NCBI RefSeq assembly: GCF_949628265.1
Contig: NC_088788.1
Span: forward strand, 34,458,335 to 34,522,334
DNA length: 64,000 nt
Origin: Cloeon dipterum
Lineage: Eukaryota; Arthropoda; Insecta; Ephemeroptera; Baetidae
Reading direction: 5' to 3'
How positions within the stretch are numbered: position 1 is the stretch's first letter; every line of letters starts with the position of its first letter. The notes below the pieces were generated by a model. The model was given only the letters and a program-made list of their open reading frames with translations. It did not search any database and was not told the origin of the DNA. The translations under genes were made by a program, and so were the position numbers. This document shows positions 19,784 through 64,000 of the stretch, piece after piece.

Positions 19784-22700
19784 TCACTCCCATTCCGTGG
19801 TGCCGGGTGGCTTTGAGGTTAGGTCGTAGAGCACACGCGAAATGCCAGGTACAGCCAGTACGTCGTTGGCCATTCTCATCACCACCTGAACATCGATTTC
19901 AGAGTTAAAAAAAAGTAAAAAAATGGGTGGGGGAAGCACTGATCAGATGGAGGAAAAATTTTTCCAGAAAAATTCTTAGTTACCTCTTCAGGAATTTCCT
20001 TTCCAGGAGTGGCCGGCATACCAGTCATAAAGTCTTGAGTCAAAAATGGTCGCAGTACAATAGAGTGTTGGCAAGACGGGATTCGTCCAATCGAGTCTCG
20101 GTCAAAGTGGATGGGGATTAGCACCACTGGCATTTGACTCACTCGGCTGTAGAAGTCTGAGCTTATCAGCACCTGTCAATGATAAAAAAAATCGATTTTT
20201 CATTGAGTCTAAGCTTAGAATTAGAAATTACCTGGTTGGCAATATGGTCTGCTTGTCTGATGGTGCTAATGATGCTTGTTGTGAGATAGGTGGGGGTCAC
20301 ATCTTGCACGGGGTCTCGCACCATCTTGCCGAAAATGTAGCAGACACGGTTGATGTTGTGACAGATCCTAGGGATAATTCTGGCGAGGAACATGAGGTCC
20401 TCCCAAACAGGGGGACCGTCACACGAAATTCCCACTACGTAACTATAGCTGCGACTATCACCCTGCAAACAGAACAATTTTATTTGAGACGATGCTGAGT
20501 GAGAAAGTGCTTGGGGTCGATGTGACTGTTTAATTTTGAACCAACTTAAAATGAAGTAGCTTTACCTGAACGCCGACACTTCGGATAGGCAAAAGGATAG
20601 CTGCCAGCTGTAGCTTGCTCGAGATGAGAAGCAGTTGCTTCCTCTCTTCCTCAGTCGTCGCATTTTCGATTCTGTTTAGAAGAGCGTGTTTCTGCAATCG
20701 GATTGAGTCACATTTGGAAAATGAAAGCCACGCAAAGTCGCACCTTCTGCAGCATCTGGTTGTATTCGACAATAATTTTGACAACAACTTGTGACTCTGA
20801 AAAGTCTTTTTCAATGTACGGTTCCTCGGCACACAGGACACGCATGGCCAAGCCCGGCCCTGGGAAGGGGTGCCGCATGACCATGTCGTTGGGCAGTCCG
20901 AGGTCGCGACCCAAATTTCGCACCTCGTCTTTGTGAAAGTCTTTGAGCGGCTCGACAACACGGCCAGCACTTCTCAGCTGCCGCACGAGTTCAGTGTCGT
21001 TGTGGTGGGTCTTGATCACGTCGGCTTTCGAGCTGGCCAGAATGGACGCCGACTCGATGAGGTCAGGTCTCAGGGTGCCTTGCCCGAGGAATACGTCTTC
21101 CGGACGCAGATTCAACTCCTGGATAATTTCGTTGGCAAGCTGTCGGCACAAGAGTTAGTTTTTGAGATACAGAGTCTCTTAGGTTTCTAGAGGTCCCATC
21201 CGTGAGATTTAAGGCGGAAGCTGGCAGTACCGGATTAGCCGAATTTTTTTCCCTGGCGGCTGGCTATTTTCACCGGCGGCTGACAATATTTTAAACGGGA
21301 AGTTTGATAGTGCTTGATGACCCGAGGGGCAGCAAGATATTTTTTCTCGTGCACTTTTAATTTAAGACCTTTTTCCCTGATGGCTGGCGCAGCGCAGCGC
21401 GGCTGGCTGAGACCTCTTGTTTTTGCGTTCACGTGAATAGTGAAAAAAAAATCAAAATTGCACGATCAGCGAAATATGCCCTCCTGAGGTCAGACTAGAC
21501 CAGCAGAATTTAATTCCCAAGCGTGGGCACTTAAACGACTTCTGACGGGCTCTGTATTGGTTCAATCTGCAAGATCTACACGCTGCTAGAACGGCCAAAT
21601 CAAGATCTTTCAGAATATGTTCAATTGGACCCTTTTGAAACCATCTTAAGAGTGAATTTGGGTGAAACTCACATGGACAAACATATCTCCAATGATTTTT
21701 CTCTTCTCTTCCGGAGAGATAGTGGCATTTAGCGTTTTAGTAACGTGTGCCCTTGAGGTAGGATCCCTTTTATCTGCTGGAATGACTGTTGAACCATACG
21801 CAAACTTCTGAGCTGCGTTTACGGCTGGAAAGGAAGCAAACATTAAGAATGGGCGACTTTTAAAAAATAAGATACCCACTTCTCAATTTTAGACCCAGGT
21901 TGCTGAGCGACTCTTCCACCTTTTGGCTCTCCTGCTTCCTCATGAAGCCGTTGTCTATGTGCACAGCGATAACTTGATCGTCTCTCAGAGCTTTGTGCAA
22001 CAGTGCCGCACACACCGTCGAGTCAACTCCGCCACTACATAACAACTGTCACCAAGCAGCCACTGTTACGCATCTCGTCAAAAGTTTCTTTTCGCGAGCT
22101 TACCAAAACTTTGTGGTTTCCAACGGTGTCTTTTACGTACTTGATGCATTGCTCCTCTCTGCTCTGCAGGGTGAAGTTGCCAGTCAGACCGGCAATGTCC
22201 ATGAGGAAATTCTTCATCATGGCCTGGCCGTTCGGGGTCAAGTCCACCTAGTGGCACACACACAGAATTAGGGCCACCTCTCCAAGACAGAGCACTCAAA
22301 CATGCCTCTGGATGGAACTGGACACCATACAGTCTCATCTTGTCGTTGCAAATCCCTGCTACTATGGATCCAGACATGGAAATCACTCTGAAGTGTTCCG
22401 CCACCTTGTCAATGCTGTCTCCGTGAGTTAGCAACACTTGCTGTTCCTTTTGGAGGCCCCTGCAGTGAAGTGTTATGTTTAAATTTGACAAAATAGGAAA
22501 TAAGAGGCGAAAATGAGACGTACTTGAAGAGCAGGCACTTTTCGTCCACGTCAATGCTGAACTGACCATCTTCTCTGACCTCTTTGCGCACCACTTGGCC
22601 GCCAAACTCTTTGTTAAGCATCTGCATGCCATAGCAAATTCCTGCAAGCAAAGGCATGTTTAGAAATTTAATAGGGATACTGCGGGCAGGGTTTACCTAA

Positions 22701-29900: not shown

Positions 29901-32261
29901 AACCTGAACAGGAAACACGTTGCATGTAGTAAAATCTAAGACACTATTTTATATAGAAATAAATCCAAAATAATGAGAGAGAACTGACCCCAAGCATCTG
30001 GAAGCAACTGTCGTGCGTCTGTCGTTCTCATCTCTTGGAAGAAGGAGCCTCTGTGAATGGCCCGAAAATGAGACATGTACCTCATTCGGTTAATATTTTC
30101 AGCAACAATTGTGAGCCCTTTAAGAGATAATTAGATATTAAATCTGTGTAACTCTATCAACTCGTTGTGTACCTTTATCCTGCATGAGTCCCAATCCCGA
30201 GTTGGATGTGATGTTCCCTGTGGCCAAAAAATTCGAAAGCGCATTTTCAAATGTACCACATCTTCTGATGCACTGGTCAAGTTCATCTAGAAAAAATCAT
30301 TACAAAAAAACGACTAGATTACAAGGGACAACATACCGGTGGTGAACGCGTACAGTGAACCTTTAATTTTAGACCTTTTTGTGATGTTTGACTTAAGAGA
30401 AATCAACCACCTCTCTAGTTTGTCAGCCAAGACTTGCATGTACAAATGCCCGCCTAGGAGGGCTTCCTGCATCATCACTGTGTCCACTGATTCAGCTTTG
30501 ATGCGGTTTTGCACAAAAGCGTACAGCTTGCGCACCATTTCACAGACGCACTCAAACTTGTCCTCGTACTTGTCAACGTGGATGCAAATGCATTGCCTAG
30601 GGTGAACAGAACATTAAACAAGTAAAAAAAGAAGCCAGAGAGTACTAACTCTATGATGTAGCGGCCAATTTCCACGTCAGTGTACCACGTAGGGAGCCGT
30701 CTCAGCTTTTCTCGGAAATTTTGACCTAAGAACGCCAATGCTTCCTCCTTTGTGTGCACATTTTCACTGTGGGCCTCGCGTAAATTTGTCCTTATACAAC
30801 TATAATGAGTTGAAGTCTATTAATAATCTGAGAAAAAATATTTAAATTGGCATTATACCCCTGATAGTATTGATCCCCTTCAGCTCCATGAAGCAGATTG
30901 CTGTAAATTTCAACATCGGTGCGCTCTGTGGTAGCTCTCATGATGATGCTGACAGGAGCAAAGAAGAGTGTTTTCTCATGCGAAAACATGAATTTGCACG
31001 AGCCATCCAGGATGAAATGAGCCACGTTGTTCTGAGAAAGATTTTAGTGCTCTGTTTTTTGGCGATCGAATGAGGAATCATACCACTGATCTCAGATCCT
31101 CAGACACTGAACGCATCAACACACCCTGATCTGAAAATAAAGGGCCTCTGTTGCGCCAGGTACCACGCTTCAAGGCAATGGGGAAATTGCGCCTTGTACT
31201 GATAAGCATTCGAACAAGGCGCTCATGGCCTTTGACAATGAAGTAGCCTCCCCAGCAGTCCTCCTCTTCGCCTACTTTCACCAACTCACGGGGACTCATA
31301 TCACTTAGATGACAAGCTTGAGACTGAAAGTTTGAAATGGGTTTATTCAACGCATTATAATTATATCAGAATTTAGTGTTCAAAGCCGCCAACATATTAC
31401 CGATTTCAAGGCACTTCCGCTGCGATTTAGGATTCAATCCTGCTAGTGTAAATTCAGCCCTCAACATGGTTTCTTTAGATGTGTTGCAAACGAAAATCAG
31501 TCAAACCAATCGATAGAATCGTCAAAAAAAAAGGTTTTTCACGTTTCTATGGCAATTAGCTGGACTGATTTTTGTTTCAAATACATAAAAAGAAAATAAT
31601 TTTAAGAGCAGAAAGCACACCAGCAGGATTGAGTCTTAAATCGCAGCGGAAGTGCATTAAAATGCAAAGTAACCGCTGGCGCAAACAACACTAAAAGGCT
31701 TTGGCAAGTGGCGAATTTAATATAATTTATTTCAATTTACCTTGAGCATGACAGGAACTTCCCCAAGATTTAGTTGAACTGACTGTCGTGGCTCTCCATC
31801 CAGCAAACAATGCAGTTTAGCTGTCAGCAACCCTTTGTAGGTTTCGCCTCTTTGCCGGCATTCGCTGGGTAGGATTTTTGTGCTCTTGATGGGCAACACC
31901 GAGTTGTAAATGGCAGGTCGGCTGATATTAAGGTCCTAAAGGGCGGCGGAACATTGGCATTAATAAAAGCAATTTACATAACCCTAAAAATCTGAGTGAA
32001 CAATCTGATATAGATGAAAATTAAAAATAAAAAGATTATTACTGTAACAGTGAATGAAAGGCGTCCATGTCCATTGGGCAGCTCCATCTGCTGAGGCTTC
32101 AGGTGTTTAACAATTAAACCCAGGCCTTCACTCAGCATCCAGTTAAAAGAGTCAACATGAGGAGTGCCAAGGGCCTCCAAAACTGGATTGGCTTCCTCCG
32201 GAGGTGGCCCAAACGTCGCTGAAGTTAGATGCCGGAGAGTTGGCTCCACGTGATCTTCCAT
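26966..32261 (-). CDS. POLR1B: DNA-directed RNA polymerase I subunit RPA2
   Basis: Second-largest Pol I subunit, forming half of the catalytic cleft that transcribes 47S-type rRNA in the nucleolus. Sixteen coding exons: 32049-32261, 31741-31935, 31084-31323, 30859-31031, 30650-30790, 30337-30596, 30173-30286, 29989-30117, 29323-29903, 28961-29137, 28806-28907, 28646-28755, 28443-28593, 28231-28387, 28046-28171, 26966-27459. Phases all join to 1120 aa (human about 1135). Recognisable blocks include [17 protein letters not shown] after residue 490, [18 protein letters not shown] (742-759), [12 protein letters not shown] (868-879), [28 protein letters not shown] and RFGEMERD. The C-terminal zinc site has CxxC pairs at 1058/1061 and 1082/1085. 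The largest intron is 27460-28045. The start ATG gives an N-terminus of family length. It shares a head-to-head promoter with the C1orf131-like gene. No lost motif or frameshift was seen. Confidence 0.96.
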
Positions 32262-40122: not shown

Positions 40123-43055
40123 TCAGTGGGCGTGACGCTGTGCGAATCGGATGACAGACGAGCTGCGCACCGGCGTGGTCGACTCCTGCATGTAGCGCTG
40201 CAGAATCATCTTGGAGCGTTTGCGCGGGGCCGCGGCGCCGTCATCCGCGCCGGGGTCCGGCGAGGATGCCGGCGACGGTGACTCGGGGTTCGAGTTGGGC
40301 GGCGTGGGCGGCACGGACGCGCCCCGCTTGCGCCGCTCGAGCAGGAGGTAGTTGGGTGGCATGGCGCCACCCGAGAGGTAGTCTGTCTGCGCGGCCGGCA
40401 GCATGGACCGCGGGTCGGGGCATAGCCGCACGGTCGGCTCGATCGGCGTCGCCGCCTCCTCGTCCACGTGCAGCGGTGGTGTCGCCGACGACGATCGTGA
40501 GTCGTCCTCGTCGTCGTGGCGCCGACCGGTGGAAACGTTGCCGCCCTCGCGGAGGTCGATCGCCGTCAGCAGCGCCGGGTCAATCGATACGCGCTCAGCG
40601 CGCGGCGCCGCCGGCTGACCAAACGGAGACTCGTCGAGCGGCGACGGCGCCGACACCATCGCTTGCGCTCCCGCCTGCATCGCTTCCGCGTTGCTACCAG
40701 AGTGAGTCTTGATGTGCGCTTCCATCGCCTTTTTCGAGCTGAATGTCATGTGACACAATGTGCATTTGTACACCTGCGAACACAAGCAGAAAAATTTAGG
40801 TTAGTCCATAATGAATTTACTAAAACACAAAATCAAATTTAAATTGATAGTTTGAATTTATAACCAGCATAAATTGGCTTTTTCACTACATTAACGCTTT
40901 TTTTTAAATTGAATTAATTTAATTCAAAAGTCTAAAAAATAATTTAATTAATGCAAGTTGAATTAATTCCTCAATTAAGAATCGAAACAGTTAATGACAG
41001 TTGATATTTTAATAAGCAAAAATAAGGGGTTCAAGTGGCAAAAATAAACATTTTTTATTTTCAAAACTTAAAAAAAAAATTGACAACCCTAATTTTTTAA
41101 ATGTTTTAATGGTTTTTGATTCGCTGCCAAAGAATCCTGACTAAAAAACCACCCCGCAACTACCAACCGACACTTTAAAAATAAATATTCACCTTTTGGC
41201 CAAAGTGGGCGACCTGGTGGAGCTTGAGGACGTGGTTGTAGCCAAAAGCCTTGCCGCAGATGTCACACGCGTACGGTTTTTCCCCTGTGTGCGTGCGGGA
41301 GTGCACCTTGAGCTGCTTGGAGCAGGTGAAGCCCTTGTGGCAGACCTGGCAAACGTAGGGCTTTTCTCCTGTGTGCGTGCGCGTGTGGATGACCAGTTGA
41401 CCTGACTGAATGAAAGTCTTGCCGCACACGTTGCACCGGTGCGGTCGCTCGCCAGTGTGGATGCGCATGTGTCGGTGCAGTTTCCCTGAGTGTTCGAAAG
41501 CACGCGCGCAAACGTCGCATTTGTACGGTCGCTCCTGAGGACAGAAAGAGAGACAACAAGTGAGATTTCTGCAGGGAAAATGTCACCTGGACAACCAACC
41601 TTTGTGTGAATGCGACGGTGCACGCTGAGGTTTTCCTTGACAGAGAAGGACTTGTGGCAGTACTCGCACTCGTACGGCTTTTCGCCCGTGTGCGTGCGGA
41701 AGTGGCGCGTGAGACGCGCTGGCACCGCAAACGTCTTGCCGCAGATGGTGCAAGGGTAGGGGTCTTCACCGGCGGTGGCGCCGTTGCTGCTCGGCGCTGT
41801 CGACGTGCTGACCTCGCCAGGCGGTTGGACTGAAGCTGTGGCAGGTGGCAGCACGACCGTCGATGCTGTGGGCGCTGCGTGCGAACGCATGTGATTCTGG
41901 TACGTGTTCTTCTGCGCAAAACTCTTGTGGCACAACGCACACTGGTATTGCGCCGATGCGAACACCTCTAGGTCGGGACTGCAGACAACGCTGTTGACGC
42001 TGGATTGCGCGGGCGCCGCCTCTGGCTTGGCGCCGCTGCTGTTACTTGTGCTGCCCTCTGCTGCGTGTAGATACCCTACCATCTCCGACACCTTACTCCA
42101 AAGGGACTCTGCGGGAGACAAAAATTGGCTTGATTAATCAAAGAGTCGCATTTTTTTCTTTAATTGAACTTCGAGGGAAGAGGAATGAAGGAAAGGAAAT
42201 GGAAGAAACCGACAAGATAAAGAATTGATTGCAGTAAGCTCGCCCAAGAAAACAGAACTACTACTGCTCGTTTAAGTTCCGGAGGAACAGGAATATTCGT
42301 GAACCCGATCATACAAGTCACTACAATAATTGCACTTCTAGCAGAAATATAGCAGCGAAATTCATAAAGTAGAGCTCTACAGGCAGACAATGAAGAACAT
42401 TTTTTTCATTTTTGACTCGAAGAGTAATTTGCTTGTGAAATTTAGCGACAGTTTATCTCTAAAATGTGCAATAATGAAATCGGGGCCGAGGTTAGATTTT
42501 CGATTTTTCCCAATTTTTCGCCAAATTAATGCCCGATTTCGATCTCTCTCCGATAGAATGCGAATTTGCAAGAAAAGTTCCCAAAAGTGTGAAAAAAATC
42601 GTGATTTCACAGAAAGGACACAATTTAAGCTCACAAACCTTCGAGCAGATTTTCTCAAAAAGTTAAAAGGCAACCTGAGAAAGTTTTAGCGTTTTTCTCA
42701 TTTTTAGAACGCAGTATTTACAAGTAAAGGTAAAAAGGTTTTTTCACAAATTTTATGTTCAGCTTTATTTAAAAAAATACATGTACCGAGAAAATTGTTC
42801 ATAAATTTAATTCGGAGGTGCTCTAATTTTTCCTTTGATTTTTTTCAATCAAATCTGGTCTAAATTACTTTGACTCTAATTGATAAATGTCCTATTTTTA
42901 GATAAATGACCGAATTGCATTTAATTTTCCTCATATTTAAGAGATAAAAATTGATCTGCAATCCTACCATCGAGCCAGAGAAGCTTCTTCACTTGCTCCG
43001 GGTTGCGCGGCGGCTGCGGCGGCCCTTTGGACCACGAAGGAGAGGGTTGCGCCAT
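40123..43055 (-). CDS. Kr-h1: Krüppel homolog 1, juvenile-hormone response transcription factor
   Basis: Nuclear C2H2 zinc-finger factor induced by juvenile hormone through Met/Taiman; it represses metamorphosis. Coding exons: 42968-43055, 41600-42108, 41193-41534 and 40123-40773, giving 529 aa. Exon 1 (MAQPSPSWSK to KKLLWLD) joins in phase 1 to SLWSKVSEMVGYLHA. An in-frame ATG at 42121 lies upstream of the CCCGCAG acceptor and is intronic. Eight fingers lie at about 84-106, 147-169, 175-197, 203-225, 231-253, 259-281, 287-309 and 315-337. Finger 4 (CDVCARAFEHSGKLHRH), finger 6 (KGFTCSKQLKVH) and finger 7 (KAFGYNHVLKLH) are diagnostic. The tail has the family's conserved RKRSKMIL and VRSSSVIRFA motifs, the second near the C-terminus. 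A splice acceptor 4 bp before the ATG implies noncoding first exons upstream, as in other insects with alternative Kr-h1 promoters. The coding DNA is strongly GC-rich. Confidence 0.95.
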
Positions 43056-43059
43056 TGGC

Positions 43060-44242
43060 CTGCGAGCCGCGGAGTAAGAGAGAGATAGAGGTCCTAACGC
43101 ACCGAAATACGGAATGCAACTGCAGCGGGCGCTAGCGGGCCGAGTGCATTTAACTCCCGAATTTGGCGCAGCCGACTGCGTCCGGAGAAAGTCGAGGACC
43201 CCTCCAGTTGCGCCAGGTCAGTGCCTCGACCCTCCTGATGGCCGCGCGTGGCACGGCGCAAGCGTCCCGCGGCGGCCCCCTCGCATCGACCCCCGGCTGC
43301 CGAGGCGAGCAAGCCGGCGCCTCAGCCGGGGATTCTAAGCGGAGCGGCGAATTAATACGTTAATACCGCATTGTTCGAGCGCGCCGCGTTAGGAGCCTCC
43401 ACGTGGAGCACTGAATCGGTCTTTACCCGCGGCCTCGCTCGCTCGCCCGCTGCCTGCGCGCTTCGCTGCCGCCGCCGCCGACGACCTAACCCATTCCTTC
43501 CGCCCCCCGAAACACACACACTATGACACCATCCCCGACTCGTTGCGCTGGCTGGCGGGCTTGCACGGCAGACACCACCCCCCTCGATTTGGAAACCCCG
43601 AAAAACAAAGTGCGCGATTTACATGACCTCCCTCACTGACGTAACCTTGACTCAGGAGCTACGAAAATTATTTCGTCGGAAATGCAAGTTAATAATAAAT
43701 AATGCGTTCCTCGACTTCCATCACTGGGGTGCACGCGATTTATTTATTCCTGCCGTGGGAAAGGAAGGTTTTAAGGCTTTTTCGGTTGCGCCTGCAAAAG
43801 TCACGCGCGCAACTTTCGAGAGCGAGAGGCAGGAAATGCGCGAATTGTTGGCAAAGGTGACCCCGATTGCAGACGCAGGTTCGAATCTAGGCTAGGTCAG
43901 TTTCTCCCGCTGGCTGCACAAAAGAGAAACTGCACGTTGCAAGAAACACGAGTGCTCGAGTGCAACCTACTTGCAGAAACCGTTTCTGCATCGTGCAATA
44001 ATTTTCTCTCTTTCGCGCTAGCTCGCGCGCTCGTGCCCTTCACTCGCGGAATTATTTTCGCAATAAATTTTTCTAGTGATCTTTGAGACAAAGCAAACGG
44101 TTGTTCGTCAAAACAGTGACAGAATTAGCACGCGAAAAGGCGGTGCGCGCGGTGAGCGAATTATGTATTATTTTCGGAACTCGAGGAGAGATAAGGAGGA
44201 AGTGTGGCTATGTACATATAATGTAATGCGAATTTCGGCTTA
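43060..44242 (-). promoter_or_regulatory. putative 5' UTR intron of Kr-h1
   Basis: The minus-strand acceptor CTCGCAG ends at 43060 after a pyrimidine tract (CTCTATCTCTCTC), 4 bp before the coding ATG. The best upstream partner I see is CAG/GTAAGC, with its exon ending at 44242. That would make a 1.18 kb first intron. The proposed upstream exon would contain a short ATG frame of six codons ending in TGA. The pairing is inferred from splice consensus only. Confidence 0.4.
43391..43405 (+). promoter_or_regulatory. JH response element-like E-box 1
   Basis: AGGAGCCTCCACGTG, the E-box being CACGTG at 43400-43405 within the perfect palindrome CTCCACGTGGAG (43397-43408). The CCTCCACGTG core resembles, from memory, the Met/Taiman-bound element upstream of Kr-h1 in silkworm and flour beetle. 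It lies about 340 bp upstream of the Kr-h1 ATG. Confidence 0.55.
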
Positions 44243-44830
44243 CCTGGTCAGCGTTGGCTGCCGTTCATTGTGCTATGATTGTTGAATTGGACTTGCTCCT
44301 CTCAGGTCTTCGTTCAACGAAGGGTGCGAGAAAAGTGGCGAAAACGTAGAACGTCTAGACAATCAAAAGCAGAGCTTGACCAACCCTACGTTGTCGCGCA
44401 GAGTGCCTCAGAAAAGCAGCCTCAACTCTGTGTTTACGCGCTCCCCTCCCCACCTGCCCCTCCAGCCTTCGCGGAATAAAATCTCGCTATCTGCCTCTCG
44501 CTCTAAAAGTACGTCCCTCTCGCTTTAAACACCCAATGGATTGATAGCAGAATTACCACACCAGGTTGCCAACCTAACAAAAGGAGCGTACGCCGCTTCC
44601 AAGTCCCCGCCCCGAGATCCATTGACGAAAATACCCGTCGGATCGGGATTTTCACCACTCGAATCTTTTTCCAGGTGTTTCTAGACGAAAATTCCGGCGA
44701 ATTTGTACAAATTTCCGAAATTCTGGAGCCCCTGGAGGTTGGCTTCGTACTACGTCATCGCTAGCTGAACGACCTACAGTTTACTAACGTAGGAGGGGGG
44801 AACGCGAGGGCAACGGGCTTGGAAAAGAGG

Positions 44831-44845
44831 CACGTGGAGGCTCCT
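44831..44845 (-). promoter_or_regulatory. JH response element-like E-box 2 (inverted copy)
   Basis: On the minus strand this reads AGGAGCCTCCACGTG, the same 15 bases as the site at 43391-43405 but in the opposite orientation and 1.4 kb further upstream of Kr-h1. The E-box CACGTG is at 44831-44836. Confidence 0.55.
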
Positions 44846-45664
44846 AGCCGGGGATTCTCGTCTTTGTTTGGTGCGAATGCCGCGCGTGTAGCCAATAATT
44901 TCACACTACGCGCAGATAGGTCGTCGTGCGGCCGCGGCATCCAATCTGCGGGCGGAATTAACACACGAGAGACGAGAGAAGAGGCCACACGCGCCGAGCC
45001 GAGCCAACCTGCCAAGGTCCACAAACGAGATCGCGATGGAGCAGCCTGTTTTGCTCCGCGGCGCGCAGACCATCTTTCCAAAAATGCTTTTAATCGCTCG
45101 CGCCTGCCTCAAAATTGCGCACTCGGCGGCGCGGCTGCGGCGGATTGCGAAAGCGGAAAGCGTGGCCGATTCCATGAACTCGAGCCCTCCACGCGCTCGT
45201 CATGTTTGGCCGCTGCCACCGCGGCGGCAAGCAGAGGCCAGTGTCAGGAGGAACCACGATCGATATCGAGAATATGCGCATTAGATCCGAATTCACCTAC
45301 CTCAACTCGATATCTATTATTATTATTTTGCTGCAGCGCGACCAAAAACATTTCGTCTAATCTCGGCTCAGCTTCTATTTGTTTCGTATTTTCGCAACAA
45401 TTTTTATATGGGTTCGCCGGCGCTGCCGCGCAATTCGCAAAGGCAAACGCAAAGGAGGAATGATATGGGGAATCTTTAGCCTTGGAATTTTTGCTGGGCG
45501 GGCGGGCGGGCAAGCGGCAGGCCGGGCGGGCGGGCGGGGTGCACGGAGGTTTGACTTTTCGCGAATTCGGGCGCTGGGGGGAGGAAGAGAGACACAAGTT
45601 GCTGGTGTTGCAGAGCTATTTGACCGCTAACCAGAGTTTCGCTCGCTCGCTCTCTCGCTCTACT

Positions 45665-45676
45665 CTACACGTGGAG
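45665..45676 (-). promoter_or_regulatory. third CTCCACGTG E-box
   Basis: The minus strand reads CTCCACGTG around the E-box at 45668-45673, a weaker match to the two 15 bp sites. A further CACGTG without this flank is at 45883-45888. Confidence 0.4.
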
Positions 45677-46180
45677 CAGCAATATAGCCTTGTGCAAAAT
45701 GCGAGGCTCTTGCCCCCTCGCTAGCTCGCACGCGCGCACTCTCGCTCGCTCGCTCGCTATATAGCCTGGCTGTTTGCTGAATTTTCGCCGCCGCGCGCCT
45801 CCCGCTCCTCCTCTCCTCTCCAGCCCAGCATTAAAATTAGCAAGAAGCAGCGCAAAAAGTGTTAGGCTAGGTATTTGTCACACACGTGCACTCGCGGCTC
45901 GGCAATAACAAAGCTCTCTCGCTTTAACCGCCGCCGCCGCCGCTGCCGCGACTATTTTCGCTGCCTAGATCAGCTCTATTCGCATTCGCGCCCCGACTCT
46001 TTTAAGTGATTCGCGTTTCGGTGCGGCCTCTGCAACATTGTAAGCCTTAATGGATGTTGTAAATATAAATTTAAGCAGGCAGCAGGCGTTGTTGACGTTA
46101 CTTTCGGCAGTTGCTTGAGTGTTGCCGATTTTACCTCCAGGGTCACACACGAGCCACACTTTTTTCACCATCTCGCCTCA

Positions 46181-48699
46181 TCGCAAATAGATTCTATTTC
46201 AACAAAATCGTTTCCGCGTTTGCAAAAACCTGATTCGATCCCGGAAAAGAACCCAAAACGCCTCGCAAATTTCCGCACTTTTCCGAAATTACTATAAATT
46301 CAGTCAAAATGAAACTTAATTTAATAAAATCGCAGAATTTGTGCAATTCTGATAAATTTGATTTTTTCCATTAAAATTCGCAGATTTAATTGAGTGTGGA
46401 TGTTATGTAATGTGAAGTAATAAAGTTCCCCTATTACACGAAATTATGTAATGTTTACAGAGTTTGGATATTTTCGTCTAATTTCACAATGAAGAATTTT
46501 TCTGTATAAATTGGAACTACACGCAGCAACAAAGCGGATAATTGCTGTTTTTGCACATTTGAAAAATTGGCAAACCCTTTAAAACTTTTTCCCCGACTGT
46601 GGATTCATCTAGATTTGTTTAGAAAAATAAGGTTTTCAAGGTTTATAAGGTTTTCGCTACCTTTGAGTATACTTAAACTCAAACAAGAATCATACTGATG
46701 ATTACAGTTTTGGCAGGTTATTCGGTCTTAAATCTGCGACTTTCACGGTACTTTCGTGCTGGAATGAAACCAGATTCTTTAAATACTCCACGAATACTTG
46801 AAGCCAAAGGAGTGTGCCTTTTGCTTGAAGCTGCGGGTATTTTGAAACCTCCTGCGCACTTTGCGGGATTGTTATATAAAACATATTGGGAAGTTTTTAG
46901 AGCTATTTAGGCTTTATTATTAGAAGTTGTGTGCCATTATTAGCAATATAAAATTTGTTAGATTAATTTTTAAATTTTCGAAAGAGGGATACTTCTTACA
47001 CCAGATTTTAGTGCACTCCCCTGTTGTTGTGCATTCTGCACTTAAAATAATTTCATTTAATGTGCTGAAAACAAAATTAGTCAAGCCAACCGCCGCACAA
47101 ACGTCAATGAAGATTATTCATTTAAAAAAATAATTGGATTTCACGTTCTCTTAACCATCATAATTGCAAAAACTGCAACGTTAGACTCGTATTCACCTCC
47201 CCTGACCAGCTGTAGGGTTTTGAACCCCCTACTACAAGTTTAACTTCTAAATATTTCGCTTAAAGTCTTAAAAATATAAAAATTCACTCAAAATATCCAT
47301 CCCATTCCTTATTTCAAAATAAAAAAAATTCTATTTAAATTAGTAAAAAACGACATTTTGAATTTTTCAAGTGAGTTTCAACATAACAATTTAAAGGTGG
47401 AGGGTAAGCACCCCTAAACCCTTCAGCTTGTCAGGAGAGGTCAAGACAAGACGGTGGGTAGTTTTTGCCATTCTGATTGATAGCACCCGAGATATGGAGT
47501 TGACGAAATTTGCAAAACACGAAAAAGTGGAAAAAATGCTTTTTTTCTAGGTTTGAAGTGGAAGTTCTCGAAAACAAAAAATAACACCACTCTGAAACAT
47601 GCAATTTCAAAATTCCAAAATTTAAATTAGAAACCAAAAGGCCTTAGGATATCAAATTTGGAGTTAGTTTGATCAAACTCGGCTAGAGGAATCCAAAGGC
47701 ACGCCTTAATTTGTAGATTGCAACACGGGGAAGATGAGATCCTGAGTTCTGAGATCTCAAAGTTTTTGCAAAATTGAGACATGTAAAAATAAATAGCATT
47801 TGAGTTTTTCCAATTATTCTGCGACTGCTCTGACCAAGCTTTTCCGAGATTTTTCAGCACGAAATACTCTTGCAGCGTCCGTGTCCGCGTTCACGGAGGC
47901 AATGTGTTATTATTAAATTTGCTGTAACAACAAAAGACGCTACTCTTCTGCGAGCAAGCGGGTGAGCGAGCGAGCGAGCGTTTGTTTCGGAGTACACGTG
48001 CGGCCGGTTAGAGCTATTGCTAGGATGGGACGCGCTTGGCCGCGGTGCCCTTGAGCGAGTCACATAACCTTCTGCGCTGGCAATCGTTGGCCTTGGCTTC
48101 TACTTTTCTGCCGCTTTTCGCGATAACAGCTCAACACCGAAGCTGTAGTGCAGTCGTCCCCGCCTTCGCCGCGTCCGCCGCCTCCTCGCCTCTGCCTCTC
48201 TACGCGTCTAGCGTTGGCCTAGGCTGCATTCGCCAATCTTGAGCACCGCCGACCGACGCCGCCGCCGCCGTCGCGGCTCTGCTAACAAAAAAAACTGAAA
48301 CCTAGGCGCCCATCTCGCGAATTAATCTATCGAAGGGAGTCGGCCGGGCCTTTGCCTGCGCATTCGCGTTCGCATACCCACCAACATCGTTTGTTTTTTT
48401 TTATCGAACACGTGCCACACTTTCAAGCAGTTTGTTTTGTTTATATTGGCTGGCAGGAAATTATGCAGGGTCGTTATCACAGGTTTTTTTAAATTTTAAT
48501 TCTATTTTTGAAAAGTTTCCTTTACTATTTCCTGTTTAAATATTATCAGTTTCTATTTTCACGATTGCAAATCACTATTATATTAAAATAGTGTTTTACA
48601 CAGTAAGTAGTAAAACCAACCACCTGAATGAAAAAATGTGTTACAAACATAGCAAATCCAGGTAAAGGTGAGTGTTTCCACGAGAGGTTTGATACCATT
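46181..48699. other. noncoding DNA upstream of Kr-h1
   Basis: AT-rich except for a GC-rich island at about 47880-48380 with GAGC repeats (near 47965), a GCC run (48254) and E-boxes CACGTG near 47996 and 48409. No coding exon is recognised. The island could be an alternative promoter or enhancer. Confidence 0.3.
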
Positions 48700-49335
48700 T
48701 TAAAATTTTCACCTCTTTGAAGAGCACCATTTTAATTCTTTTCGAAATAACCTATTTTGCCGTTTTCCCGGAATACCAGGGTGAAATCTGAGAATATTTT
48801 ATTCGCTAAACAACGTTTGCATTCGCATAAAAATAAAAATTTCCAAATTCGAGTAATTTTTGAGTTCATTGCGAACACTTAAAAAAGGCCTCTTTAATTT
48901 TCAACGTTAAGTATGCGGCAAAATTTTGCCCCAAGTGTATGTACCGTGTCTAGAAATTTTCAGGATGGGGAAATCTTTAGTTTTCGACATACATAATAGG
49001 GTCTAAGATTGAGAAAAAGTTATTTTTGAGTTCAGGGGAATAGCCATAAAATCAAAATAAGTTGATTTTTACCCTTTGAACATGCTGGGAGGCACAGTCC
49101 GGAGGTCAGATAAGATTACCAGAACAGGTAAGAAAACGAACCCTGGCGTCAGGGTAGCCTTCCAGAGATCGATATTGTTAATTCTCATTTGTAGCCACTT
49201 AAACGACGCCTGACGGGCTCTGTATTGGTTCGATCTGCGGAATCTACACACCGTTGGAACTGCCTGGTTGAGATCTTTCAGAATATGTGTAATTTAACCT
49301 TTTGGAAGGCATCAAGGTGCTCAGGAAACAACCCA
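48700..49335 (+). repeat. dispersed repeat family A, copy 3
   Basis: The longest plus-strand copy. It contains the AGAGATCGATATTG block (about 49165), TGACGGGCTCTGTATTGG (49211-49228), CACACCGTTGGAAC, TTTCAGAATATG and a GGTGCTCAGGAAAC end. These blocks are collinear with copies 1 and 2 and, inverted, with copies 4 and 5. Confidence 0.6.
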
Positions 49336-50911
49336 AATCTCGTTCCTAAGCTGAAAAGGGCATTTTAATTTTTTCAACTGGAATTTTTGTCCTTTTTCAT
49401 CAGCGATTAAAACTTGTGTTTTGAAAAGCATAAAACTGTGGGTTTCAGCTCAATATCATCAATGAAATTTGTAAAAGAAATTTATTTAACTATCAGATTT
49501 AAATAATATTTTCTTCACGGATGGATTAGGATTCGAAATTATTTAAATGTTAATGCACCACGTGTTCGATTCGAAAAGAGTGAACACAAAATAAAATAAC
49601 TAATTTTGATAAGGCGCCTCTTGATACTGTCGAAATCACACAGACGATTGATTATGCACGAATATCGTGCTCTAAATCAGCTCCTCAACACTCGACTGAC
49701 TATTTTGCTGCGTTGCAACGCGAGTGAGAGAGGCCAATGACGCCACGAGTTATTGTCAACAAAATTTTCCCACCGAGCAAAAAGATAACAAAAAAACAAC
49801 GCCCAACGCCCGCTTCCAACGCCAGAGTGCGGCTCCGACCACAACATTTTAAGTCGTTCAATTTCAATAAGAATCATTACTTTACCTAATTGTGTCGTTT
49901 TTGTGATTAAAGATTGAAATAATTATAAAGTTTTACATATTAGCTTGAAACACAAGAGAATTTTGTATTATTATTTATTATTAACAAATAAAATTCCTAT
50001 GAGAATTATACGACTGTTATTGAGTAAATTGGATCGAGACCGTGGAGACCAAAATGAGTACACACTCCCAATGCTCTTGCAGCGACAAATTTAAATAGGA
50101 ATTGGATCGTTGTTTTTCCTCCAATTTCTTCTTTTGAGTGTATTACATAACGTTAACTAGTTTTACTCTAAATTTAACGTTCTCAAATCTTGGTTTTTGT
50201 TTATTTGCTTCCATTATCTATATTACATGCATTTTCCTTGGTGAATGAAACATAGATTATCGTCCACTGGTTATCAATATTGAACTTTGATATCGGTTTC
50301 AAAATCTGACAAGTGGAACCTGGTGTCCATTAATTCTCCACGACCGTTCAATGGCTTCTGTTCGTTTGACCTTATCAAATCAGCCTCTTTAATAGGACAA
50401 CGGTTTTCGGACGTGCCCCCTTGACAATATTTGTATAACAGAAATGTTTTCCAAAATGAAATGGTGCGATCCACCTTTTCTTGAATTGCCAAACGTTAAC
50501 CAAGAGCAGGAGGAATTCGCTCATATTTTTTTTGCTGGTGGGATATGGGATGCGACAAAATATCGAACGCATGAGGGCTTGGTGCGTTACGGGACGGGAG
50601 CAGTGGCAAAAGGAGCCATATAGAGTGCGTTGGAAAGCCTTTTTCTTGGCTCCGGGCGGCAGGCACCACACGTGTCGGAGGCGTTTCCACGTGCGGCGGT
50701 CGTCGACCCAGGCACAGCTCTGACCTATTTATCCCGGTTTCACTTTCCCTTCCTTTGCTTTCTGTTGGTGGAAATTCCCAGGCTTCCGAAACACGTGTGG
50801 CAGCGAGAAACGCGAAAGGATTTTGGAGGCCAAGCAACACTCCAACATACACTCGCCTCGGCGCAGGGAATAAAACATCTCGCATTTTCCTGCTCCGACC
50901 TTTTTTTAGGA

Positions 50912-50943
<32 letters not shown>

Positions 50944-53900
50944 GGCTTTATGCGCGGCAATTGTACATATATCTGCTATTACACAGACAAAAAATCCAGT
51001 TTGCGCTCATCGGCCAAGCCCATTTCTACACCACATCTGCTCCTTACGCTTTGTCGTTTCTGAGCAAAAAATAATAAGTGCTCGCTCTCACAAAGCGAAC
51101 AGAAAAGGCAACTTGCTTTGTATAAGAAATCGGCATGATCGATTTTTATTTGTCTTTGCCAGGCGATCCGACTTTCAAAATATTTTTTAATAAATACAAC
51201 AAAAAACAAAAACATCCTGCGTATATCTTTCTTTCCGTAATTATATTTTTTTTATTATTTCCAAAATGCCCTGCAAACCTCAAAAACAGCGAGGTTGAGG
51301 TTGAGAAACCTGAAATGGCTGCCGCGCCTTAGCATTTTGGTTTGCGCAAAGCGAAATGGCTGCGTGGAAAAGGTGCATGCGAAAGGGAATTGAGCATAGG
51401 CCGCTCTCCGCACCGCTCCAACCCAACAGGGGACAAGGCGAATTTGCTGCGCGCGCGCTCCTGGTGCGGTGCGGTGTGTGCGAGGCTGCTGCTGCTCAAA
51501 TAGAGATTGTGCGTGCGTGCCGACCTGCTTGAGGGTCGCCGACCCCGCGCACCCGACACGTGTCAACCGAAAATCGCGCTCCGAACAACCGCGAGCGAGC
51601 TCCACGCGCACAAATTCTGGGCTCGTTTCTGGCGAACTGGGAAAGGGTTGGATGCGCTATGCGGAACGGAGCTCAGTGAACCGCTTTCACATTGTGGTCT
51701 TAATATTTCAAGATTCAGCCATCATAGGCTGTTTTGCTTCATTTAGGACTTAAAGATTTAAACTAGGTTATAGCTTTGCATTTATTTTACTCATTGAGAC
51801 GTTCAGAAAAATGGGAATTTGAATTTCTGCACAATCTCGCAGAGTATATCTCAGCCAGCATTTTTTTCTCTGAGATGGTCAAAATATTTAAACAAACGCA
51901 AAGCTATAATCAAAACACATATGAAACGTCTATCGAATGTTTGTGAGTATTCAACAAAAAATCTTGAACAAAGCCAAGCGTTAAGATGCAATGTACCAAA
52001 TTTAGCCCGTTTTATTTGGAAACCACGTGGGAGTTTGCATTTTTGCAATTTTTTAGGCTGTCCTGACAAAAACTCTTTGGTACTAGCAAATTTCTGACGA
52101 AACTGCAGCTGGAAGATTTCAAAATGAAGCCTACTTTGAGGAGGATTCTATAGTAAATTAACAAAACGTGCGTTCAAGTGATTTCTTGCAGTAAAAGCTA
52201 GAGAAAACCCAATCATCATTGTTTATTTAGACATGATCAGACGTCAAACTTGAACGTTTTGTTTATATTGCCAATAATTGTCTTGGTCTTCCTTATATAT
52301 TCGTGTACGCTCTAAATAAAGTCAGAGATAATTGCAGTTGTTGCCAAACACGATTAGGTTGCGAAAGTCGCGAAGCTGGAAGCATCAGAATCCGAGTGTG
52401 CAACTGCAGGGCCAGCATGCAACACAGGCAGCGTTGTCCTAAACGCGAAAACATTTCTCCTTTCGCTCCGGTTGCAACAATCGAGACGGAATCAGGCAAA
52501 CTCTGGGTTTCGTTCGTTTGAGTTGCGGCGAAAACTCTCTCGAAAAAGTGCATCAACGCGAACTGCAGAATGCATGCTAATGCTAACCTCTCCTTCTCAC
52601 GAGCAGGCAGGGGAGCAGTATAAAAAAACCAGAAAGAGAGCTAGCGATGAGAACTTTCTTTTGATATTGTGTACTACGCAGTGCAATCGAGGTCGTTGCC
52701 CTGCGTGTCGACACGTGTCCTCCGCGGATCGATTTTCGCTTCTTCTCCATGACTCACGCAAACATACACCCCAGCCCCAAAACAACCCCATGCTTCTTCG
52801 TCTTTCCCTTCTAATTCCCTCGAGTTCAGAAGGAATCTTGACGCTTTCCCTCTTCTTTTTCCGACGAGATGCACAAACTTGATATGAGTGTTCAGCGTTA
52901 TCCTGACAGAAAGAAACTACGCAAGCAGGAATAATTTCTTTTGGTTAATTTGGAAATTGCAAAATAAGGTTTACTGTTCAAAAACACTGGAAAACTTCTC
53001 TAGAGTTCAATTTAGGTGCTGTTCAAGGCAATCTCGGACGGTGACCTATAATAATAATGAGCACCATAAAAATGTTCTCACTTTCCTTTTGATTTACTTG
53101 ACGTTGTAGAGCCTTTTAAATGTCAAAATAGTGTTCTTTAATCCAAAATAAAGGATTCTTCATAGTACAAATCCTCCACCACACAAATTCTACTACGGAT
53201 CCAGGCTGCTGAAAGAGGATTTTTTCGTTCCAAAAACTCTTTTTCACTGCCTGACAAAGTAGGTCTTTGAAAATCCGTGTGCCAATCGGCTTTTGATTAA
53301 ACAATGCATGCGTCGGTCGTCGTGATGGTTATTTTTTTTTTATATAAGTGCTCCCCTAATATTTGATCATAGCTAAAACTGGCTCATTTCCATTCGAAAC
53401 TTGCTGTTGCTAGGCATGAGGGGGGCTCTAGGGGGTCAAGAGAAGCCGCGGTGTCGCTGAAAGCAAGGGGCCCCTCCTCAACCAGCTTCGCTGGCACCCC
53501 ACGTGTGTGCCGCGCGCAGGCCTTCCCCACAGTGTTCCTCGCTATTCGCCCCTCTCTGCTCCGAACCCGTGGTGTCGTCGACCGCAAACTCACTTTCTCC
53601 GAATAACCCGATCAAAACAGGAGCCCCCTGTGCCCCCTGGGGGGCGCGTGACGCCGAAAGACCCTGCGATTCGACGGGTGCGGCTCGGAACCGTGGCTCA
53701 GGGTGGTCGCCGGAGCCCGCGCGTTGCTCCGAAGGGTGGGAAAGGGTTGTGACGTCACTTGGTTGGTGAAAGCAGCAAGTTTGCAGGCACGTGTCGCTGC
53801 AAAGGAGGTCGTTGAACGCACTCGTTCGCTGCCGACCTCGGCCATTCGTTTCACGAACCCCGCACACATATACTGCGCCGCAAAACACAAGACATCGGGG

Positions 53901-55429
53901 GTTTGCTTGCATAAGTACTCTTCGCTCGGCGTGCACGATAAATGGCTTTGCCCCCAAATTGCTTTCTCCCTTCTGAAAAGAAATTTCCTCATCCCCATCG
54001 AAATAATGCTTCATGCCCTCTTTCATAGAACAGCATAAAAGGATCTAGATTTTGAAAGCATTATTCCCCATCATTTTCCTTTCTTTCATTACGAACGAAG
54101 CTACGTTGCATCTATCTATTTGCGCTATTACTCACATTTGGTGAATTTGCTTGAAGATAAGATTAATTGAAAACAGAGAAAAATTGATAAAACAAGGAGT
54201 TTTTATCGGATCCGTCTGAAAGCATAGCTGCAATTTCAAATTAAATCAATGCGGTTGATAAAATATATAATTTATTTGAAATAATTACTTACATTGTTTT
54301 TTTGCCTTTTTATCACGATTTAACTTTTAGGAATTGGCTGACGTTGAAATGTTTTAATTAATCTATGATTCTTTTTTTCAACCGTCAAAACCAAATATCT
54401 TTTGCTGTTATGAGTTTAAAATCCTTTGAGTCGATAAATGGAAGGTGAGAAAATTTATGCCATCCAAACATAAGTGGCGAATTGTATTAAGGTTTACTTA
54501 CACAACTAGTACAGTGGAAAAAATCAAAATCATTAAATTGACCAGCTATTTCATAATACACATATATGTAAAGAATAAAAACCTTTATTACATCAAAGGA
54601 TTTAGACATTTATGTAATAACATCACAAGATTATAATTTGTTTGTCTTTGGAATTACTTCCAAGGAATTTAATTTCTCTTTTTGTGATTCATCAAGCATA
54701 TAGAATTTTTTCCTTGGTTCGTTCCGCCGCGTGTGGAAGAGAGTTGAGTTGACGAAAAAGTGCATCGGTCCCGGCCAGCTCTATTCTCTTTCTCAAGGCG
54801 AATTAGTGCCTCGGATGCGTTTGCGTTCGTTGACTTTTCGTTCGCTTTCTCGGGTTCATCGGACGAAGGCGCAGAATTTCCTCGGGATTGACCACACCGC
54901 CAATGCAACCGAGCCAGAGCGATGCGCTGCTGTATTTTGGGCGATTCTCTGATGCGTTGACCCCATAAAAGTATCCTTTGGCCGCGCCTCTGGCAGCTGA
55001 CACTGCGCTGCGCCTAAATTTGACTAGAGTGCAGCCAGAATAGAATACTGGCATTTGAGAAGTTCAATTTTATCACTTTTATCAGGCAGTGCGGTTGTTC
55101 TTTTCTTTTACTAATGGTTTAGTGTGCGTTCTATCGACGAAACAAAAAATTGTAATAAAATGGCGGAAATTGAGGCAGCATTTTGGAACTGTTAAAAAGA
55201 TTTGATGGAAAGAGTAATTAATTTGTTTTTCCTCGTCCTCACTCACGCAGGTCGAGTGATAAATAATCGTTATCATGCAAAAATAAATTAATGAAGAATG
55301 GAAACAAGGAAAGGTGAGAAAATTTGTCTGAAAAGCAATAGATTTTCCCAGACATTTCCCAGTTTTTCAATCGAATCAGGAATTTCCAATTTAAAAATGA
55401 TCGTGTGGACGAAAAATAGTGCTTTTTCT
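49336..55429. other. 6 kb of noncoding DNA with GC-rich islands
   Basis: GC-rich islands at about 49680-49830, 50580-50900, 51300-51690, 52330-52860, 53400-53960 and 54710-55050 alternate with AT-rich DNA. Several carry CACGTG (near 50659, 50684, 50792, 51557, 52711 and 53499). Open frames inside are overlapping and unrecognisable. The islands may be distal regulatory DNA or unrecognised noncoding exons; the sequence alone cannot tell. Confidence 0.3.
50914..50941. repeat. TG dinucleotide microsatellite
   Basis: Fourteen perfect TG units. Likely polymorphic; no function inferred. Confidence 0.9.
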
Positions 55430-56110
55430 CAGGGCCCGTGCTCAGGAAACCCCGAAACGTCCTGATAGTTTCCAAAGAATCCATTTGCACATATTCTGAA
55501 AGCTCATCTCGCCTTGTCCGTTCCAACGAAGTGCAGGTATTACAGATCTAATCAATACAGGGCCCGTCAGGTGTCATTAATGTGTCTACTAACATACGAA
55601 CTAACAATTGTATCGATCTCTCAAGGGCTACCGTGAAGCCAGGGTTCGATTTCTCAACTGTTATGATGGTTTTTTATGACCACAGGGGTGATCCTAGCAT
55701 GTTCCGACGGTAAAATTAACCGATAGTGCAATTTTGATTTTCTTGTTGTTTACATGATCTAAAAAACAACTGTTTTTCAACCTTTATGACCCACTCTATA
55801 TCCTATATCTCAAAAAATAAAATTTCAAAGCATGTTACATACACTTTAACAACATTTTATCCCAGGAATCTTAGTAAAAAATTAAAAAAACCGTTTTTGA
55901 GATTGAAAAAGAAACTAAAAATATTTACTTGAATTTGATGAATTAAAAACACGTAAATTTAGAAGTTGTTGAACGTCTAAAGAGACATCTTTTGGCACAA
56001 AAGCTCTTGTAAGCTCAAAGAGGCTGATTTTCCCGGATTGCATTGATTTTCGGGGAAAATAGTCTCACATTTTCTCGTCATACTTGGATATTTTGACACC
56101 TCTATTAACC
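55430..56110 (-). repeat. dispersed repeat family A, copy 4 (inverted)
   Basis: Reverse-orientation copy of about 680 bp. On the minus strand it reads the TGACGGGCCCTGTATTG block, the AGAGATCGATA block and the TTTCCTGAGCAC end, in the order of copy 3. It also includes a TTTCCCGGAAAA-like outer part near 56030-56060 that matches copy 1. Confidence 0.6.
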
Positions 56111-57159: not shown

Positions 57160-57620
57160 ATATATATTGCCAATTGAGGTTTGTCCCCATTCATGAGAGT
57201 TTAGGCATTTCGGAGAGTTGCCTGAGCACCCTGATTGCTTCCAAAGGCTCAAATTGAACATATTATATTGAAAGCTCTTGACATTGCCGTTGCAACGGTG
57301 TGCAGTTATTACACTTCGAACCAATACAGAGCCCGTCAGGCGTCGTTGAAGTAGCCGCATGAATGGGAACTTAATAACATCGATCTCTCAAGGGCTAACC
57401 TGACGCCTTTGCCTGTTTTGGTGGTCTTTTCTGGCCACAGCATGTTCCGAGGATTAAAAAATATGGTTTTCGTTTGAAAGTCGTGTAGTCACTCTAAAGA
57501 GGCATCTTTTAGCACAAAATTTGATGTTCTAGCTATTAGAACTCGAGACTCGAGGTACTCTCATTTTTGTGAACGCCAAGAGGCCCGTTTATTCAGATTT
57601 CCCCCTTTTTTAACTCTTTA
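57160..57620 (-). repeat. dispersed repeat family A, copy 5 (inverted)
   Basis: On the minus strand it carries CGACGCCTGACGGGCTCTG, the closest match to copy 3, plus the AGAGATCGATG block and a GGTGCTCAGGCAAC end. It lies about 1.1 kb from copy 4 in the same orientation. Confidence 0.6.
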
Positions 57621-59951: not shown

Positions 59952-60300
59952 TCTGTGAGAAAATCTGGCAGGATGTTTGATTGATTTGGATTATTATTAT
60001 TATTTAAAACAGACCAGCTAAAGAGTGAAGCCCTTCGGCATTGTGAATATTTAATAAACAATGCCCGCTTTTTATGTCACATTAAATAATTTAAATGTTT
60101 GATTTAATGGTTTTTATTTCGGTTGGCCCATTTGTTCCTTAAATATGTCCGGGTTGTGGAGATAAATTAAAGTAATACCATATATTTTGATTGTTTTCCA
60201 CTTCTCAAAAATGATCATTATCACAAAATAACATTAAAAACGGCAAAAACATTGCTATTTTTATAATTTAAGAAAGGGAAGATTGCATTTGTAAACCTTG
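59952..60300 (+). repeat. 350 bp repeat C, left copy
   Basis: Begins TCTGTGAGAAAATCTGGCAG and matches 63652-64000 along its whole visible length in the same orientation. Shared blocks include GAAGCCCT, CGCTTTTTATGTCACAT, AAATAATTTAAATGTTTG and TCGGTTGGCCCATTTGTTCC. Small indels separate the copies. Noncoding. The pair brackets the TREX-like gene. Confidence 0.75.
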
Positions 60301-63651: not shown

Positions 63652-64000
63652 TCTGTGAGAAAATCTGGCAGGATTCTTGATTGATTTTGATAATTATTAA
63701 CAAAAACAGAACACCGCAAAAGGGCGAAGCCCTCAAGCATTCGGAATATTTAGTTAACATTTTCCGCTTTTTATGTCACATGAAATAATTTAAATGTTTG
63801 ATTTAATGGTTTACCTCGGTTGGCCCATTTGTTCCTGAGGAATGTTATTGTGTGATGGAGATAAATTATAATATTATTAATAATACCATATTTAGTTTGT
63901 TTCCCACTATTCAAAAATGATATCGTAATATAACAACATTTAAAATGAAAAACATTATTATTTTATAAATTTAGAAACAGAAGATTGCATTGGTCAACTT
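63652..64000 (+). repeat. 350 bp repeat C, right copy (cut by window end)
   Basis: Direct copy of 59952-60300 starting TCTGTGAGAAAATCTGGCAG. Similarity still runs at the last base of the window, so the unit is longer than what is visible. Confidence 0.75.

Follow-up and report, generated by a model that had tools for sequence, protein, structure and literature searches.

Two identical words lie on opposite strands beside a zinc-finger gene of Cloeon dipterum. Do they give juvenile hormone (JH) a direct hold on this gene? We analysed a window of 64,000 nucleotides, which is the whole stretch of DNA considered here. The gene is Kr-h1, the main anti-metamorphosis gene of insects and a direct relay of the JH signal. 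The two 16-base words are probably a duplicated Kr-h1 JH response element (kJHRE), with Met-Taiman binding and direct JH induction. If so, an exact kJHRE core in the two positions known from the flour beetle would indicate that the DNA word of the receptor and its layout are both kept at Kr-h1.

The identity of the gene was established from its spliced product of 529 amino acids. It presents eight C2H2 fingers, the motif PRKR at position 496 and RSSSVIRFA at 516. Insect Kr-h1 proteins are described by eight C2H2 fingers and the C-terminal motifs PRKR and RXXSVIXXA (PMC9092015), so that the finger number and both conserved motifs agree. Crustacean Kr-h1 is reported with seven fingers (PMC12897451). 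Pfam finds C2H2 fingers in all three long exons, those of the last exon being below the curated cut-offs. A PDB search with four of the Kr-h1 fingers returned generic zinc fingers. Likewise, a pattern scan of viral contigs gave 5 matches and no Kr-h1 relative, and Rfam at gathering thresholds gave 0 matches. Judged by its product, the minus-strand gene at 40123..43059 is Kr-h1, the name that a preliminary description of the window had given it.

The position of the words depends on a non-coding first exon, which we predicted from splice scores. The best minus-strand donor in 43060-64000 is that at 44244 (score 7.7). It is followed by one at 44454 with 6.4, and the three internal Kr-h1 donors score from 1.8 to 4.0. 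The acceptor of the start-codon exon is at 43059 and scores 5.0, compared with 4.9 to 9.9 for the other three acceptors. From this donor and this acceptor, intron 1 is predicted to be 43060-44243 and would therefore hold site 1. Nevertheless, a rival acceptor-like site at 43749 scores 8.2. If it is used, site 1 would lie in a 5' UTR exon instead of the intron. A short upstream reading frame of six codons and a stop is present just before the predicted donor, at 44248-44268 of the minus strand.

Table. Features of the Kr-h1 locus (positions in the window).
Feature	Position	Strand	Description
Kr-h1 coding exons	43059-42968 (ATG 43055), 42108-41600, 41534-41193, 40773-40123	-	spliced product of 529 aa
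Predicted splice donor of non-coding exon 1	44244	-	CCAG/GTAAGC, score 7.7
Site 1	43390..43405	+	16-mer TAGGAGCCTCCACGTG; E-box 43400-43405; palindrome CTCCACGTGGAG 43397-43408; in predicted intron 1
Site 2	44831..44846	-	same 16-mer TAGGAGCCTCCACGTG; minus strand = GCCTCCACGTGCC; ~590 bp upstream of predicted exon-1 donor
Site 3	45668..45676	-	CTCCACGTG; ~1.4 kb upstream of predicted exon-1 donor
Companion AGCCGGGGATTCT	43324..43336	+	53 bases from site 1
Companion AGCCGGGGATTCT	44846..44858	+	abuts site 2, one base shared
Distal E-box cluster	50669..53793		8 CACGTG, 4 of them [AG]CACGTGTCG
Distal [AG]CACGTGTCG sites	50668, 51554, 52709, 53787	+, -, -, +	in distal E-box cluster

The preliminary description had reported a 15-mer, AGGAGCCTCCACGTG, at 43391-43405 on the plus strand and at 44831-44845 on the minus strand. 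Both copies are exact, at these coordinates and on these strands, and a search of the window allowing up to 2 mismatches gave no other. The identity between them extends to 16 bases (sites 1 and 2 of the table). Read on its minus strand, site 2 is GAGCCTCCACGTGCCTCTTTT. A third site had been placed at 45665-45676; its CTCCACGTG is indeed there, and the actual span is shorter (site 3). One additional CTCCACGTG in the window, at 32244-32252 on the plus strand, is 11 kb away. The pair had also been called oppositely oriented. This is correct for the outer flank and not for the core. Because site 1 holds a 12-base palindrome, its core is identical in both directions and has no orientation. Finally, one site had been expected upstream and the other probably in the first intron. 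The splice-score prediction agrees, with site 2 upstream and site 1 in the intron.

How far do these words resemble known JH response elements? In Tribolium castaneum, the k-JHRE probe is TCGCCTCCACGTGCCGTTTCA. Purified Met-Tai, whether of beetle or of mosquito, binds this probe, and a mutant of the E-box was bound poorly or not at all (PMC8683598). This probe and site 2 have 13 contiguous bases in common, GCCTCCACGTGCC. The core of the element, CACGTG within GCCTCCACGTG(CC), is thus present in 13 of 13 bases at site 2, in 11 at site 1 and in 9 (CTCCACGTG) at site 3. In the whole genome, GCCTCCACGTG is followed by CC in only 2 of its 43 copies. One of these is site 2; sites 1 and 3 lack the CC. 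The likeness to the Met/Taiman E-box element of flour beetle Kr-h1, which had been pointed out in the preliminary description, is therefore exact in the core at site 2. Outside the core, the Tribolium probe differs. It matches site 2 in 15 of 21 bases and sites 1 and 3 in 12 of 21. The identity over the 21-base probe was tried as support and rejected: site 2 scores 15, the E-box at 32247 also 15, and the top score among 82 E-box readings from the background is likewise 15, so that site 2 is not separable from the background.

The layout gives a second point of comparison. According to the descriptions in PMC4214675 and PMC4114754, Tribolium Kr-h1 has its element in two places, the promoter and the first intron. 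Splice scores predict the same layout here, with the rival acceptor at 43749 as a reservation. In Bombyx mori, the kJHRE is an E-box element of the Kr-h1 promoter (PMC4214675, PMC8487040). It is reported to be identical with that of Tribolium (PMC4214675), a likeness by description. The JH-responsive Ldh gene of Drosophila is described with an E-box pair in its promoter and first intron (PMC11651902). A literature text search for CCTCCACGTG gave no title on juvenile hormone among the matches listed. Overall, the pair has the appearance of a hormone switch of a type already known, in a new species.

We made two kinds of counts, of repeats in general and of the words themselves. For the first, low-complexity words were removed beforehand. 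The window contains 46 exact repeats of at least 15 bases: 26 inverted, 2 of which are self-palindromes, and 20 direct. The means of 30 local shuffles are 7.2 inverted and 4.9 direct. Within 1.5 kb, there are 6 inverted pairs of at least 15 bases, counting that of sites 1 and 2 (0.4 in shuffles), and 4 direct exact repeats. The genome background was sampled in 18 random stretches of 10 kb (180 kb). It holds 9 inverted 15-mer pairs within 1.5 kb, found in 8 of the 18 stretches. These pairs are frequent in the window and in the background, so such a pair per se is ordinary in this genome. The preliminary description had considered an exact 15 bp match within 1.5 kb very unlikely. The counts refute this, and we rejected the rarity of the inverted pair as an argument.

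The genome-wide rarity of the word is a better argument on chance than that generic one. AGGAGCCTCCACGTG has 2 copies in 190,111,064 bases, both at the Kr-h1 locus, and its reversed control has 0. The shorter GCCTCCACGTG occurs 43 times compared with 63 for its reversed control, and is therefore not a favoured word. In fact, GCCTCCACGTG, CTCCACGTG (961 genome copies) and CACGTG are each rarer in the genome than their own reversed controls. Among the 43 copies of GCCTCCACGTG, only the pair at Kr-h1 is close together; the next closest pair in the genome is ~160 kb apart. Assuming an even genome, the genome count gives a Poisson P ~2.6e-7 for two GCCTCCACGTG in 3.2 kb. On the same assumption, three distinct CTCCACGTG in 2.3 kb have P ~2.5e-7 if the place is named beforehand, and ~0.06 clusters of three CTCCACGTG are expected anywhere. 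The real background of CACGTG is uneven, with maxima of 4 per 3.2 kb and 6 per 10 kb (18 samples), and further tight groups appear among the matches listed. The real chance of a cluster therefore exceeds the stated Poisson figures. In local shuffles of 43001-46100, CTCCACGTG reached a maximum of 1 (200 shuffles), versus 4 counted.

The E-boxes are not limited to the three sites. The window presents 25 CACGTG compared with 7.8 in shuffles, and 15 of them fall in the 10.4 kb of 43400-53793, where the 38,116 copies in the genome would predict 2.1. We compared the 16 CG-centred palindromic hexamers in 43001-54000. CACGTG is the most enriched (15 versus 2.5 in the background) and AACGTT comes next (7 versus 1.9). 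Beside these E-boxes, the C-box CACGCG/CGCGTG, which resembles an E-box, counts 8 in 43001-46100 versus 2.9 in shuffles, a number attained by 2 of 200.

A distal group of E-boxes is located in the long interval that separates Kr-h1 from an exonuclease-like ORF at 61.6 kb. Its 8 CACGTG compare with no more than 4 per 3.2 kb in the 18 background stretches, and no more than 4 in 200 shuffles of 50001-54000. Four of them have the form [AG]CACGTGTCG, which counts 606 in the genome versus 890 reversed. From these 606 copies, 0.01 would be expected in 3.1 kb instead of 4, for a word that was picked after viewing the sites. The four sites are loosely like the Aedes Met-FISC consensus MFBS1, GCCGCACGTGTCGTTGG, as quoted in PMC8683598. 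The best matches to this consensus in the window are 13/17 and 12/17, and one match of 13, at 47995, is outside the distal cluster. Of the 82 background E-box readings, 3 attain 12/17. We propose 50669-53793 as a candidate distal enhancer, which would be a second JH enhancer.

This wide enrichment bears on who reads the E-boxes. Other bHLH factors, such as Hairy, Myc/Max or Clock/Cycle, might be their main readers, and the JH reading would then be a coincidence of the CACGTG core. Myc/Max and Clock/Cycle are bHLH factors that read CACGTG, a core common to many factors of this class. In Aedes, Hairy binds CACGTG and uses it (PMC6818763). The enrichment also extends far past the kJHRE-like sites. 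However, the GCCTC flank, found twice beside Kr-h1, is that of the JH element described for the same gene (PMC8683598), and the 15-mer is nearly unique in the genome. We regard a main role of other bHLH factors as unlikely. A duplicated kJHRE is well supported by the sequence.

A companion word accompanies each copy of the 16-mer. This 13-mer, AGCCGGGGATTCT, is found three times in the genome, twice at Kr-h1, and its reversed control has 2 copies. The third copy is on contig C2, in a 3 kb locus free of CACGTG. At Kr-h1, the 13-mer and the 16-mer do not keep the same relative direction at the two copies: the companion is direct and the 16-mer is inverted. It follows that the two modules are not one simple duplication. 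The Tribolium probe, as given in PMC8683598, has no counterpart of the companion.

These arrangements weigh on a second alternative, in which the 16-mer pair would have no regulatory meaning and would have been left behind by a mobile element or by an inverted duplication at the locus. As counted above, the genome is rich in inverted 15-mer pairs within 1.5 kb. A second inverted match, CCG-rich and of 23 bases at 91%, also links both neighbourhoods. Nevertheless, this match is off the diagonal of the 16-mer, the companion is direct where the 16-mer is inverted, and the word is the described element of Kr-h1 itself. This origin seems very improbable to us. With the 16-mer and the 13-mer in changed order, the words look more like binding sites than like a simple duplication. 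We also rejected an origin of the 16-mer from a transposable element or dispersed repeat, since a word with two copies only in the genome is not a dispersed element.

Plain chance, an E-box-rich promoter happening to hold two copies, could draw on the 46 exact repeats of the window and the ~0.06 three-CTCCACGTG clusters expected per genome, but it is hardly credible against the value of P ~2.6e-7 for two GCCTCCACGTG in 3.2 kb at a named gene and the shuffles of 43001-46100, where CTCCACGTG never exceeded 1 and 4 were counted.

The duplicated kJHRE would act as follows. JH would bind Met, which would then pair with Taiman/SRC. The Met-Taiman pair would bind CACGTG with its GCCTC flank in intron 1 as well as upstream of exon 1, and perhaps site 3 too. 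Bound in this way, it would directly raise the transcription of Kr-h1. The copies on either side of exon 1 may act together on one promoter.

The genome encodes candidates for both partners, which were searched for with probe sequences. A Met-like bHLH exon is present at C5:17026202 (59% identity); further downstream on that strand lies a PAS_11 exon (C5:17031521). Likewise, an SRC/Taiman bHLH exon at C1:38017418 (70% identity) is followed on the same strand by a PAS_11 exon at C1:38020020. The assignment of the C5:17026202 exon to Met is a lead, drawn from a probe match and not from a tree.

A broader arrangement can be put forward, tentatively and with some doubt. Each side of exon 1 would carry a module of kJHRE and companion. 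At 6 to 9 kb further upstream, eight E-boxes of Met-Tai type would form a distal JH enhancer. The 15 E-boxes over 10 kb would then produce a graded or cooperative response and not a single switch, and the companion 13-mer would mark a partner factor of Met-Tai. The sites give precise targets for reporters and editing. The companion word, like the distal cluster, is a testable lead on how the level of the hormone is read.

Other features were observed in the window. In the predicted intron 1 of Kr-h1, TGACCTGGCGCAAC at 43207-43220 of the minus strand exactly fits TGACCTNNNNYAAC, the consensus that PMC9092015 gives for Kr-h1 binding sites. This consensus matches 654 times in the genome versus 779 reversed, and ~0.01 matches are expected in 3.1 kb and ~0.2 in the window, for a motif sought post hoc. 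Control of Kr-h1 by its own product through TGACCTGGCGCAAC is possible, and the match hints at it weakly. Elsewhere, the segments 21542-21620, 49202-49290, 55488-55630 and 57325-57400 have exact 15-mers in common, in both directions, which suggests a short dispersed repeat family. Finally, a direct repeat joins 59952-60140 and 63652-63837, ~3.7 kb apart, with four exact matches of at least 15 bases nearly in register.
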